From positions 1-35,726 of the forward strand of contig JAHFUL010000005.1 in assembly GCA_023265155.1 (NCBI GenBank): a stretch of 35,726 bases of DNA, written 5' to 3'. This DNA is from Acidobacteriota bacterium. GTDB taxonomy: Bacteria; Acidobacteriota; Vicinamibacteria; Vicinamibacterales; CAVVIG01. Below the pieces are notes generated by a model that was given only the letters and a program-made list of their open reading frames with translations, ran no database searches and was not told the origin of the DNA. Below, in pieces: positions 14,190 through 29,144 of this stretch; the stretch's first letter is position 1; the number at the start of each line of letters is the position of its first letter. The position numbers were made by a program, and so were the translations under genes.

Positions 14190-14389
14190 GTAGGCCCGAG
14201 CTTCAGATCGGGCGAATCGGGCGATCGAGGATTGGCGCGATCCCGTAGCAACGCGAGAGGGCTGGCCTCTGACACGTAGGCCCGAGCTTTAGCCATCTGA
14301 CACGTAGGCCCGAGCATTGGCCATCTGACACGTAGGCCCGAGCTTCAGCTCGGGCGATCAGACACGTAGGCCCGAGCTTCAGCTCGGGC
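14190..14389 (+). repeat. REP array, five GTAG-headed units
   Basis: GTAG followed by GCCCGAGC occurs at 14190, 14276, 14304, 14332 and 14366, all in one orientation. Three units (14190, 14332 and 14366) carry a full palindrome of the type GCCCGAGCTTCAGCTCGGGC. The two 28-bp spaced units (14276, 14304) have a decayed right arm (TTTAGC, ATTGGC). The segment CATCTGACAC or GATCAGACAC precedes the later units. The array ends about 30 bp before the start of the downstream methyltransferase. Confidence 0.85.
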
Positions 14390-14421
14390 GATCAGCGGCT
14401 CGGGCGTCTGACGATCACATC

Positions 14422-21569: not shown

Positions 21570-21577
21570 GACTCGGT

Positions 21578-22135
21578 GCCCGAGCTGAAGCTCGGGCCTA
21601 CGATCTGGCTACTGAAGCTCGGGCCTACGACCTGGCGTTGGGGGAATTGTCGCGTGAGAGCTGACAGTGAGACTGTAGGCCCGACCTTCAGGTCGGGCGT
21701 TCTGTTGAGTTAAGCCCTGGCGCCCGAGCTGAAGCTCGGGCCTACGATCTGGCTACGGAAGCTCGGGCCTACGAGCTGGCGTTGCGGAATTGTCGCGTGA
21801 GAGCTGACAGTGAGACTGTAGGCCCGACCTTCAGGTCGGGCGTTCTGTTGAGTTAAGCCCTGGTGCCCGAGCTGAAGCTCGGGCCTACGATCTGGCTACT
21901 GAAGCTCGGGCCTACGACCTGGCGTTGGGGGAATTGTCGCGTGAGAGCTGACAGTGAGACTGCAGGCCCGACCTTCAGGTCGGGCGTTCTGTTGAGTTAA
22001 GCCCTGGTGCCCGAGCTGAAGCTCGGGCCTACGATCTGGCTACTGAAGCTCGGGCCTACGAGCTGGCGTTGCGGAATTGTCGCGTGAGAGCTGACAGTGA
22101 GACTGTAGGCCCGACCTTCAGGTCGGGCGTTCTGT
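21578..22135. repeat. Tandem array of four about 144-bp units, each with three REPs
   Basis: The unit starts GCCCGAGCTGAAGCTCGGGC at 21578, 21722, 21865 and 22009, giving periods of 144, 143 and 144 bp; the last copy is cut short before ruvB. Each unit holds a reverse REP ending in CTAC, a second half-REP (GAAGCTCGGGCCTAC), a block GAATTGTCGCGTGAGAGC, and a forward REP GTAG plus GCCCGACCTTCAGGTCGGGC (one copy has GCAG). The non-REP block resembles the last codons and stop of ruvA (GGAATTGTCGCGTTGAGA). The array runs to within a few bases of the ruvB ATG. Confidence 0.9.
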
Positions 22136-22141
22136 TGAGCC

Positions 22142-23158: not shown

Positions 23159-24297
23159 GCCCGGTAGACCCGGTAGCCCCGATGGACCCGATGGACCCGA
23201 TGAACCCGATAAACCCGATAAACCCGATGAACAATGTCGGCACCGATCCACCGATGGAAGAGAGATTCGCTCCACGAGCCCGGCCGAAGCGCAGCCCGCG
23301 GTACGGCGGACGGCCGACGGCCATCACGTCGCTCGCCACCTATGTCCCGCCGCGCGTGCTGACGAATGCCGACCTGGAGAAGCTCGTCGAGACCACCGAC
23401 GCGTGGATCCTTCAGCGGACCGGCATCCGCGAGCGGCACATCGTCGATCCCGGCGTGGCCGCGTCGGATCTCGCCAAAGAGGCCGCGTTGAAGGCGATCG
23501 AACGGGCCGGGCTGACCCCCGACGACATCGGGTTCATCGTCGTCGGCACGGTGACCCCCGACATGATGTTTCCGAGCACCGCCTGCCTGCTGCAGCACAA
23601 GATCGGCGCGCACAGGGCATGGGGATTCGACCTGAGCGCTGCGTGCTCGGGGTTTACGTACGCGCTCACGACCGCGAGTCAGATCGTGGCGAGCGGGGCG
23701 CACGACCACGCGCTGGTCGTCGGCGCCGACGTGATGACGAGCATCATCGACTACCAGGATCGGGCCACCTGCGTGATCTTCGGCGACGGGGCGGGCGCCT
23801 GCGTGGTGTCGGCCGCGCCTGCCGACGAGGGAGCGATTCTCGACTACGAGCACGAGATCGATGGCAGCGGCGGGGCGGCGCTGTGCATGCCGGCAGGCGG
23901 CAGCCTGCATCCACCATCGCAGGAAACGATCGATCGGCGGTTGCACTACGTCAAGCAGGACGGCCAGACCGTTTTCAAATTCGCGGTCCGCAAGACCGAG
24001 GAAATCTCTCGGCGCATCATGGAGCGGAACGGGCTGACGCCTGATGACATCGATCTCTTCGTGTCGCACCAGGCGAACCGGCGGATTATCCAGTCGGCCA
24101 GCGAAAAGCTCGGCATCGATCCCGACAAGGTGATCATCAACATCGAGCGCTTCGGCAATACCACCGCGGCGACGATTCCGCTCGCGCTGAACGATGCCGT
24201 CTGTTCGGGTCGCCTCAAGAAGGGCGATCTCGTGCTGCTGGCGTCGGTGGGTGCAGGATTTACCGTCGGATCGGTGCTGGTCCGCTGGGGCTTTTGA
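23152..24297 (+). CDS. fabH: Beta-ketoacyl-ACP synthase III (FabH), with N-terminal repeat extension
   Basis: 381 aa from GTG 23152, which has GGGAGG 11 nt upstream. It condenses acetyl-CoA with malonyl-ACP to start fatty-acid synthesis. The catalytic triad is C165 (SAACSGF), H306 (SHQANRR) and N336 (GNTTAATIP). The canonical enzyme begins near [15 protein letters not shown] (about residue 58). The preceding residues include a stretch [18 protein letters not shown] encoded by a 9-bp repeat (23160-23231). A start at ATG 23227 or 23254 would skip most of it, but neither has a ribosome-binding site. The enzyme core looks intact. Confidence 0.92.
23160..23231 (+). repeat. 9-bp minisatellite at the ruvB-fabH junction
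   Basis: Eight tandem 9-mers of the type CCCGATGAA (variants CCCGGTAGA, CCCGATGGA, CCCGATAAA) total 72 bp, a multiple of three. It is the same repeat family as in tilS (CCCGGTGAA), about 5.4 kb away. Confidence 0.85.
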
Positions 24298-25149: not shown

Positions 25150-26277
25150 GTGGACGTCGCCGACTTCCATTTCGAGCTTCCGACTGAACTGATCGCGCAG
25201 GAAGCGGCCGGGGAGCGCGCCGCGTCGCGTCTACTGCATCTCGAGCGCGAGGGCGGGCGTGTCAACCACACGCACGTGTCCGACCTGGGGGCACATCTGC
25301 GGCGCGGCGACGTCCTGGTCGTCAATGACTCGCGGGTATTCCCGGCTCGGCTGCTCGGCCGGCGTGTGCCGAGCGGCGGCGCCGTTGAGTGCCTGCTGAT
25401 CGGGCGGCTCGGGGATCAGTCGGGGTCAGACGGGGGTCTGACCCCAATTCGACCGTTGGGGTCAGACCCCCGTCTGACCCCGCTGTGGACGTTGTGGAAC
25501 GCGCTCATGCATCCCGGCCAGAAGCTGAAGGTCGGCTCTCGCGTCATCTTCGAAGGCGCCGCCACCGCTCTTCACGGCGAGGTGCTCGCGCGCGGATCGT
25601 TCGGCCGGCGTGTGATTTCTCTCTGGACCGATGCCGGCTCAACGCCCCTCGACGTCGACGCTGCCGTGGATGCGATCGGGCATGTGCCGCTGCCGCCCTA
25701 CATCAGGCGCGGCGATCGCCCGGAGGATCGCGAGCGCTATCAAACGGTCTTTGCCACGCGTCGCGGGTCGGTGGCGGCTCCGACCGCGGGACTGCACTTC
25801 AGCGAGGCGCTGCTGGCGCATCTCGGCGATCGCGGCGTCGAAATCGCGGCGATCACGCTTCACGTGGGATACGGGACGTTCCAGCCCGTCCGCGTCGAGC
25901 GGGTGGAGGACCACGTCCTTGAACCTGAGCGCTACGAGATCAGCGAGATGGCGGCCGGCGCGATCAATCGAGCGCTCGACGAGCATCGCCGCGTGATCAC
26001 CGTCGGGACGACCACGACGCGGACGCTCGAGGCCGTGGCGAAGGCACACGAGGGCCGAGTGGTGGCGGGAGCCGGCCAAACCGATCTCTTCATCTACCCG
26101 GGATTTTCATTTCGCGTGGTTCAGGGGCTGATCACCAATTTCCACTTGCCGCGCTCCTCGCTGCTGATGCTGGTGTCCGCGTTCGGTGGACGCGATCGTG
26201 TGCTGAAGGCGTACGCGGAGGCGATTGACGAGCAGTATCGGTTCTATAGTTACGGCGATGCCATGCTGATATTGTGA
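25150..26277 (+). CDS. queA: S-adenosylmethionine:tRNA ribosyltransferase-isomerase QueA, with repeat insertion
   Basis: 375 aa against about 356 in E. coli. It converts preQ1-tRNA to epoxyqueuosine-tRNA in queuosine synthesis. Family blocks are DFHFELPTELIAQEA, GDVLVVNDSRVFPARLLG, AAPTAGLHFSEALLAHL, TLHVGYGTFQPVRVE, TTTTRTLEAVA and TDLFIYPGFSFRVVQGLITN. Residues about 91-111 (SGSDGGLTPIRPLGSDPRLT) are encoded by a 60-bp nested palindrome inserted in frame, which accounts for the extra length. The start is GTG 25150 without a clear ribosome-binding site. All conserved blocks lie outside the insertion, so activity may be kept. Confidence 0.95.
   Translation: MDVADFHFELPTELIAQEAAGERAASRLLHLEREGGRVNHTHVSDLGAHLRRGDVLVVNDSRVFPARLLGRRVPSGGAVECLLIGRLGDQSGSDGGLTPIRPLGSDPRLTPLWTLWNALMHPGQKLKVGSRVIFEGAATALHGEVLARGSFGRRVISLWTDAGSTPLDVDAAVDAIGHVPLPPYIRRGDRPEDRERYQTVFATRRGSVAAPTAGLHFSEALLAHLGDRGVEIAAITLHVGYGTFQPVRVERVEDHVLEPERYEISEMAAGAINRALDEHRRVITVGTTTTRTLEAVAKAHEGRVVAGAGQTDLFIYPGFSFRVVQGLITNFHLPRSSLLMLVSAFGGRDRVLKAYAEAIDEQYRFYSYGDAMLIL
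25422..25481. repeat. 60-bp nested palindrome inside queA
   Basis: Two 24-bp arms (25422-25445 and 25458-25481) are exact reverse complements around a 12-nt centre. Each arm is itself a hairpin, GGGGTCAGAC/GTCTGACCCC, with a 4-nt loop of G or C. The total length is 60 bp, divisible by three, so the queA frame is preserved. The GGGGTCAGAC word differs from the GTAG-headed REPs and is probably another family. Confidence 0.9.
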
Positions 26278-27437: not shown

Positions 27438-27544
27438 TTGGGCGGGCAGGGCAGGCGGGCCTGGCAGGGCAGGCAAGAGGCACGCCGCTTCTGTTTCGCG
27501 CTCGCCTGCCGGCCTTGCCCGCCTCGCCAGCCTTGCCTGCCCAA
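27438..27544. repeat. GC-rich imperfect inverted repeat before tilS
   Basis: Outer arms TTGGGCGGGC (27438) and GCCTGCCCAA (ending 27544), with many internal GGCAGG/CCTGCC words, give a strong imperfect hairpin of about 107 bp. It fills the gap between the tRNA and the tilS start. The frame through it is open but has no sensible start. Confidence 0.7.
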
Positions 27545-27551
27545 TGTGACC

Positions 27552-29140
27552 ATGGAAGTCCTCGATCGCGTTCGACGCACGATTCACCGCTACGGCCTCG
27601 CCGAGCCCGGCACGCGCATCGTGGTGGCGGTGTCGGGTGGCTCGGATTCTGTTGCGCTCGCGCATCTTCTTCAGCGGCTCGACGCAGCCGGCGAGTTGCG
27701 CGTGGCGGGTGTCGCGCACTTCAACCATCAACTGCGGCCGGCGGCCGAACGCGATGAGCGCTTCTGCCGGGATGCGGCGGCTTCCCTCCGTTGGCCCTTC
27801 CTGGCCGGGCGCGAGGCGGTCGCCGAGCGGGCCCGCAGAGAACAGCGGTCCCTCGAAGACGCCGCCCGCACCGCGCGCCACGCCTTCTTTGAACGCGCTC
27901 GCGTCCACTTCGACGCCGACGTGGTGGCCCTTGGGCACACGAGGGACGATCAGGCGGAAACGTTTCTTCTGCGCCTCGTGCGAGGCGCCGGCATGCGCGG
28001 CCTTGCGTCGATGCATCCGCGTCGCGGCGCGATCGTCCGGCCGCTCCTCGCCTGCCGGCGCGCCGAGCTGCGCGAATATCTCGACGCCGCCGAGGTCGAC
28101 TACGTGCACGACGACAGCAACGACGATCTCACGATTCCCCGCAATCGCGTCCGCGCCCAACTGCTGCCGTTTCTCGAGCGGTTCAACCCCGCAATTGTGG
28201 ATGTTCTCGCCGGCGAGGCGGAAATCACCCGCGAAGCGTGGCACTGGATGGACTCGGCGGCCGCCGCGCTCTCGTCGCAGGTCTGCCGGCAGGAGTCCGA
28301 CGGGTCCTGGCGGCTCGATGCTGAGGCGCTCCATCGCGCGCCTTTGGCGCTCGCCCGGTTGGTGCTCCATCAGGCCATGACGCTCGCCGCGAGGGGACGG
28401 ACTGTTTCCTTCGCCCATGTCGAGCGCGCACTCGAGCTGACTCGGGCGGGCGGCGGCCCGCCCGGGGGTCCGATTGACGGGCCGGGACAACGGCTGGAAC
28501 GCGATGGCGCCGATATCGTCCTAAGGAGTAGGCCGGCCGAGCTGGTGGGCCGCTGGATGCCGAACCCTGTGAACCCTGTGAACCCTGTGAACCCGGTGAA
28601 CCCGGTGAACCCTCTGAACCCGGTGAACCCGGTGAACCCGGTGAACCCTCTGAACCCGGTGAACCCGGCGAACCCCGTGAACCCAGCGAACCCCGTGAAC
28701 CCAGCGAACCCCGTGAACCCCGTGAACCTTTTCAGATATCCATTGTCTATTCCTGGAGAGGTCGCGCTTGCTGAAGCCGGTTGCCTCGTCTCTGCGGAAG
28801 AGGCCGGTTCGGTCCAGGCAGCCGCCGCGGGCGATGCAATTCTGGGAAGCGGCGCTGTTGCGGTGATTCGGCGGGACCGGTGCACGGGAACCCTTTCAGT
28901 GCGTAACAGGCGCCCTGGGGATCGGTTTCGGCCACTTGGGCTCGACGGGCTCAAGAAGCTGCAGGACTTCTTCGTGGACCGGAAAGTGGCTCGGCGGCAG
29001 CGTGACGCGGTGCCGCTCGTGGTGGACGAACGGGACCGAATCGTTTGGGTGGCCGGGTACACCATCGACGAGGAGTTTCGGGTAACGAGCCCCGCGGAAG
29101 CCGTGATAATCTTGAGACTTAAGGTGCTGGGAGGCCCCGC

Positions 29141-29144
<4 letters not shown>
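27552..29144 (+). CDS. tilS: tRNA(Ile)-lysidine synthase TilS, with minisatellite insertion
   Basis: 530 aa from ATG 27552. It makes lysidine at C34 of tRNA-Ile2 so that it reads AUA. The PP-loop SGGSDS is at residues 28-33, with [42 protein letters not shown] and [15 protein letters not shown] all present. The C-terminal domain [25 protein letters not shown] is intact. Residues about 338-392 are (NPV/L/A)n, encoded by 18 tandem 9-bp units, between the catalytic part and the C-terminal domain. The GTG of ftsH overlaps its stop. No ribosome-binding site is seen upstream of ATG. Confidence 0.93.
28563..28724 (+). repeat. 18 x 9-bp minisatellite within tilS
   Basis: Tandem units AACCCTGTG, AACCCGGTG, AACCCTCTG, AACCCCGTG and AACCCAGCG give Asn-Pro-Val/Leu/Ala repeats and keep the frame. 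Variant units cluster (the alternating GTG/GCG block is at the 3' end), suggesting stepwise expansion. Confidence 0.93.

Follow-up and report, generated by a model that had tools for sequence, protein, structure and literature searches.

An in-frame, REPIN-like palindrome in a loop of QueA from a Vicinamibacterales genome

The queA locus and its repeat family

The window, the whole stretch of 35,726 nucleotides that was analysed, belongs to a 2.53-Mb MAG of the Vicinamibacterales (Acidobacteriota), which is 66.5% complete and consists of 114 contigs (the home genome). It contains a queA gene whose reading frame runs through a long palindrome (Table 1). Judged from the relatives of its queA, the home genome groups with Vicinamibacterales/Acidobacteria MAGs. 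The queA product scored 428.9 bits against NF001140 (cut-off 324) and 373.2 bits against TIGR00113 (cut-off 267.45); with the curated family cut-offs exceeded and the fold conserved, it is a member of the QueA family. The original prediction had described a palindrome with two exact 24-bp reverse-complement arms, each a hairpin in itself. The repeat search recovered exact arms that are 3 nt longer than claimed, each holding the 24-nt sub-palindrome GGGGTCAGACNNNNGTCTGACCCC. As had also been stated, the element lies in frame and is a multiple of three nucleotides long: its 60 bp stand inside a genuine queA ORF and are translated as GSDGGLTPIRPLGSDPRLT. On each strand two of its three frames are open, and the third carries two TGA stops. 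The queA frame survived because two frames per strand are free of stops and the length is divisible by three. The very stable mRNA hairpin that had been expected was reproduced by calculation, with a fold of −68.2 kcal/mol compared with −29.95 ± 3.68 kcal/mol for shuffled sequences (z = −10.4).

Table 1. Features of queA and its palindrome (positions in the window)
Feature	Position	Strand	Description
queA	25150..26277	+	GTG start; 375 aa; tRNA preQ1(34) S-adenosylmethionine ribosyltransferase-isomerase; assigned by family profiles and PDB relatives
Enlarged-loop codons	25412..25491	+	residues ~88-114, flanked by beta strands 78-86 and 115-121; from relatives' alignments and AlphaFold2
REP doublet (REPIN-like)	25421..25482	.	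two exact inverted arms of 27 nt (25421-25447 / 25456-25482), 8-nt spacer; RNA hairpin
REP unit 1	25422..25445	+	GGGGTCAGACGGGGGTCTGACCCC; inverted repeat in itself; among the 9 exact GGGGTCAGACNNNNGTCTGACCCC copies in the MAG
REP unit 2	25458..25481	+	GGGGTCAGACCCCCGTCTGACCCC; reverse complement of unit 1

The palindrome is not a chance motif, since its core GGGGTCNGACCCC occurred 57 times in the MAG and the reversed control not once. The full 24-mer had nine exact matches (control 0), two of which are the queA arms. Further copies, for which a search had been proposed, were present both inside and outside genes. Two types of copy were distinguished in the MAG, the short 24-mer as in queA and a longer composite starting with CTAGCAGTCCGTGGCGCAAG, which seems to lie mostly outside genes. 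Longer composite palindromes of the form CTAGCAGTCCGTGGCGCAAG..GGGGTCAGACCCC..GGACTGCAACAGCCCGAT were seen at loci L010-L024, apparently as a separate dispersed family. Many relatives likewise had high copy numbers of the repeat, and their controls stayed near 0. The arrangement of two inverted REP palindromes around a short spacer is that of a REPIN, and so is the dispersal of the 57 cores and nine full 24-mers; alr (L246) has a like layout with a different spacer. No canonical GTAG was found at the foot of the queA element or of most of its 24-mer copies. We classify the queA element as a REPIN-like REP doublet belonging to the GGGGTC class.

The QueA loop in relatives and in Omnitrophota

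Most order-level relatives gave a two-part alignment to the home QueA, covering residues ~1-88 and 115-375. Because the alignment splits around residues 88-115, the extra residues are absent in most of these relatives. The extra protein length is located exactly at the palindrome, as had been proposed, and the empty sites to be looked for in relatives do exist, many of them having a short or empty loop that leaves query residues about 88-115 unmatched. Other relatives have a different palindrome at this position. Loop size varied within the family: some members have a few residues, others GGTCNGACC-type inserts (G005, G010, G016, G020, G026), and one loop of ~70 residues contains degenerate repeats (G025). 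Congeners differed as well, with a full REP in G026, a degraded one in G016 and the short remnant GGGTCCGACACG in G024. Since the loops vary among family members and congeners, the site turns over within genera. When inserts were compared with sampled DNA of their own genomes, those of G027, G094 and G099 showed only a weak excess, and there was no support for dispersal of those of G051 and G075.

The suggested structural model was obtained with AlphaFold2 from a 32-sequence alignment and had a mean pLDDT of 91.2, with most of QueA outside the loop near or above 90. Residues 91-96 fell below 50, and the block means across residues 91-110 were 48 and 55. In this model the ~20 residues are predicted to be unstructured and are placed in a beta-hairpin turn of a confident fold. 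The solved QueA chains 1yy3, 1vky and 1wdi, the sole strong matches by both sequence and fold, have only a few residues at the loop position. A tolerated turn is the simplest reading of the loop; the insert would then be nearly neutral and QueA presumably still active. A selected function of the 20 residues, such as a contact with tRNA or a partner, would fit their site on the beta domain of a tRNA-modifying enzyme and the recurrence of insertions there. It is nevertheless highly improbable, considering that the loop residues are wholly different between lineages and predicted to be disordered.

Same-loop inserts were also present in a second phylum, the Omnitrophota, where elements of the GTAG, GGGGAC and GGGGTC types occur in queA. 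The loop holds a palindrome with 23-nt arms in L127 and GTAGGGGC..GCCCCTAC elements in L135 and L219, whose inserts include GTAG..CTAC; in L199 it is occupied by a GGGGTCAGACCC palindrome, in L217 by a TCATCCTGAACGAAGTGAAGGATCT repeat. A second QueA insertion site near model position 266 was filled in L127, L135, L220, L223 and L224, and in one Omnitrophota queA two loops are each occupied by a REPIN. Inserts within QueA concentrate at two sites; the insertions mapped to site 109 are probably in part alignment spill-over from the main loop. The inserts of L135 recur elsewhere in the 69 kb sampled from the same genome (G101), with 73 and 54 11-mer matches compared with 1.0 and 4.4 expected, and near-identical copies were seen. 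In G100, the pattern GGTTCTGAGGGGGACA matched the queA copy itself only, and the sampled DNA showed no excess for its queA insert (6 matches vs. 11 expected). Nor did pattern search and sampled DNA support dispersal of the main-loop insert of L127.

The gene tgt was used as a control. Because it carries inserts too, the idea that QueA is uniquely hit was rejected. Among 136 Omnitrophota genomes, inserts of at least 20 aa were found in 10 queA and 3 tgt genes (Fisher p = 0.08), and inserts of at least 12 aa in 15 and 8, respectively (p = 0.19). The QueA loop is a recurrent site, yet its enrichment over other genes is suggestive only.

Two further explanations were weighed. The hairpin might be kept for a role in the mRNA, such as translational pausing, attenuation or control of queA mRNA stability, which would agree with the stability of the RNA fold and the frequency of palindromic inserts at the loop. 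We consider such a role very unlikely, because the hairpin is not conserved and is absent from many relatives, some loop inserts are tandem repeats with short inverted repeats only, and similar palindromes occur in unrelated genes of the home genome. An assembly or binning artefact might be suspected in a MAG of 114 contigs, given that repeats misassemble easily. However, the frame is exactly kept, the alr copy is in frame too, and assemblies of other genomes contain comparable inserts at the same loop, so that an artefact is scarcely credible.

Y1 transposases and the origin of the insert

Y1_Tnp genes (PF01797) were present in 62 of 100 relatives, and none was found in the home MAG (66.5% complete). 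Nested GGGGTC palindromes flanked 8 of 39 of the relatives' Y1_Tnp genes on both sides (L085, L087, L090, L092, L093, L097, L099 and L071) compared with 0 of 20,000 random positions in the relatives' sampled DNA, counted within 500 bp on each side with one mismatch allowed. Copies of GGGGTCAG or its variants bracket RAYT genes of relatives, for example in L085 and L092; no such case was found in the home MAG. In G026, an 18-mer reaching into the non-palindromic tail of the element had 11 copies in the genome (reversed control 0) and none in the congeners G016 and G024. Two of these copies stand on either side of the RAYT gene in contig C124, and a third is found in the queA-loop insert; alignment of the copies extends over the element. 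Because the 18-mer is common to the insert and the RAYT flanks, the G026 queA insert belongs to a RAYT-flanking REP family. For the queA element of the home genome, whose own RAYT was not found in the MAG, we infer that it belongs to such a family as well. At another locus (L301, G101:C120, 1440-1633), GTAGGGGC and GCCCCTAC stand just before and inside a Y1_Tnp match, possibly as a REP within the transposase gene.

Very probably, a GGGGTC REP doublet spread by a Y1 transposase of a RAYT was inserted or recombination-copied into a tolerant loop of queA and kept in frame. The element would be a non-autonomous REP doublet of 60-62 bp, mobilised by a RAYT/TnpA-REP-type transposase, a Y1 (HUH) tyrosine enzyme. 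It would have entered at the permissive beta-hairpin turn, either by insertion or by copying through recombination between REPs, and its DNA would now encode a disordered loop segment of about 20 residues. Selection would retain such copies only where the protein is unharmed; because only harmless copies are spared, the same loop, and in Omnitrophota also a second, would gather different palindromes in each lineage. The palindromes in the loop would then decay or be deleted. Against this explanation stand the home MAG (66.5% complete), in which no Y1_Tnp was found, the GGGGTC elements, which are without the canonical GTAG tetranucleotide, and the preference for QueA over tgt, which did not reach significance.

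Alternatively, the family may trace back to an ancestor with a single REP in its queA loop; this insertion would have been inherited vertically, then resized and homogenised by recombination with other genomic REPs. This would account for GGTCNGACC-type loops in several genera of one family and for the short remnant in G024 at the position of its congeners' inserts, and concerted change of REPs by recombination could mimic repeated insertion. We regard it as rather unlikely, because many family members have short unrelated loops, the G026 insert, including its non-palindromic tail, matches a repeat family of which no copy was found in two congeners, and unrelated elements occupy the same place in Omnitrophota. 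The original view of a mobile palindrome absorbed into the queA loop is supported.

The element shares with REP/REPIN (BIME) and RAYT (TnpA-REP) systems the short palindromes in inverted pairs, the many dispersed copies and, in relatives, a position beside a Y1 tyrosine transposase (Bertels and Rainey PMC3116915; Nunvar PMC2817692). It differs in its GGGGTC core without a GTAG foot, its location inside a coding gene and its own RAYT, which was not found in the incomplete genome. In PMC3733652 (Di Nocera 2013), Y1 transposases flanked by GGGGWSAS repeats (TIRtrons / TIRYT) are described, an Acidobacteria group included. GGGGTCAG fits GGGGWSAS, in relatives of the home genome a Y1 transposase likewise lies between repeats, and some TIRtron families are dispersed as dimers. 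Unlike TIRtrons, the units here are nested palindromes in the order Vicinamibacterales, and the likeness lies in the repeat motif and layout.

In-frame REPs in genes are already published. PMC3733652 catalogues such REPs, with tRNA-related genes among them and one case, recB, in which two Xanthomonas species carry the insertion at nearly the same position. These intragenic REPs and the Rickettsia palindromic elements (RPE) resemble the present case as in-frame palindromes encoding 20-30 aa in conserved genes, some tRNA-related; in contrast, one QueA loop is hit here by unrelated families in two phyla, and the text consulted does not name QueA among the affected genes. REP insertions inside tnpA-REP subclass 2.4 genes (PMC6006769) also keep the frame in a variable peripheral region, but queA encodes a housekeeping enzyme, not a transposase. 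The new part is the recurrent, cross-phylum QueA loop. In a limited search of open-licence papers, no precedent was found for unrelated families at one QueA loop in two phyla, nor any relevant literature on the palindrome sequence or on queA with palindromes.

Tentatively, the QueA loop may be an insertion-prone landing pad across phyla for the resident REP/RAYT family, so that queA would record REP history and palindromes would be a recurrent source of disordered segments in conserved enzymes. The name REP marks these repeats as extragenic; the copies described here lie within the reading frames of housekeeping enzymes. With different REP families converging on one loop in two phyla, queA offers a natural experiment on the accommodation of mobile DNA in proteins, and REP mobility can be traced through the lineage-specific match to repeats that flank RAYTs.

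Other genes and repeats

A second in-frame GGGGTC doublet was found in a probable alr (L246, G000:C55), in an N-terminal loop before VVKANAYGHG. The names alanine racemase, GatB, ketopantoate reductase, ATP/ADP translocase and glycosyltransferase/TPR-like were assigned by reading the sequence, with no family search. The alr stretch measured 33 residues in the home genome compared with 22-28 in most family members, and longer loops of 32-36 residues also occurred in G015, G017 and G026. In the G026 alr (L266), a different palindrome, GGGACGGGAGTCGG..CCGACTCCCGTCCC, lies in the same loop. A REP also runs in frame through L001, a membrane glycosyltransferase/TPR-like ORF. In ORFs that resemble GatB, ketopantoate reductase and ATP/ADP translocase, the stop codon seems to come from a REP. 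In L002, L241 and L248 the ORF ends in REP copies that appear to give the stop, directly after ..RGQTPV or ..RGLTPV.

Other repeats were noted in the window. Tandem arrays of CTGAAGCTCGGGCCTACG / GTAGGCCCGAGCTTCAG at 21575-22139 and 14268-14395 look like a GTAG-type palindromic repeat. In tilS (27438-29144), an in-frame 9-bp tandem array (28561-28728) encodes NPVNPVNP.. between the N- and C-terminal domains. It is a further case of a tRNA-modifying enzyme that has taken up a repeat. A further 9-bp tandem array (23160-23228) encodes 16 residues in the predicted 5' part of the fabH ORF, and the FabH domain begins after it, at residue 56.
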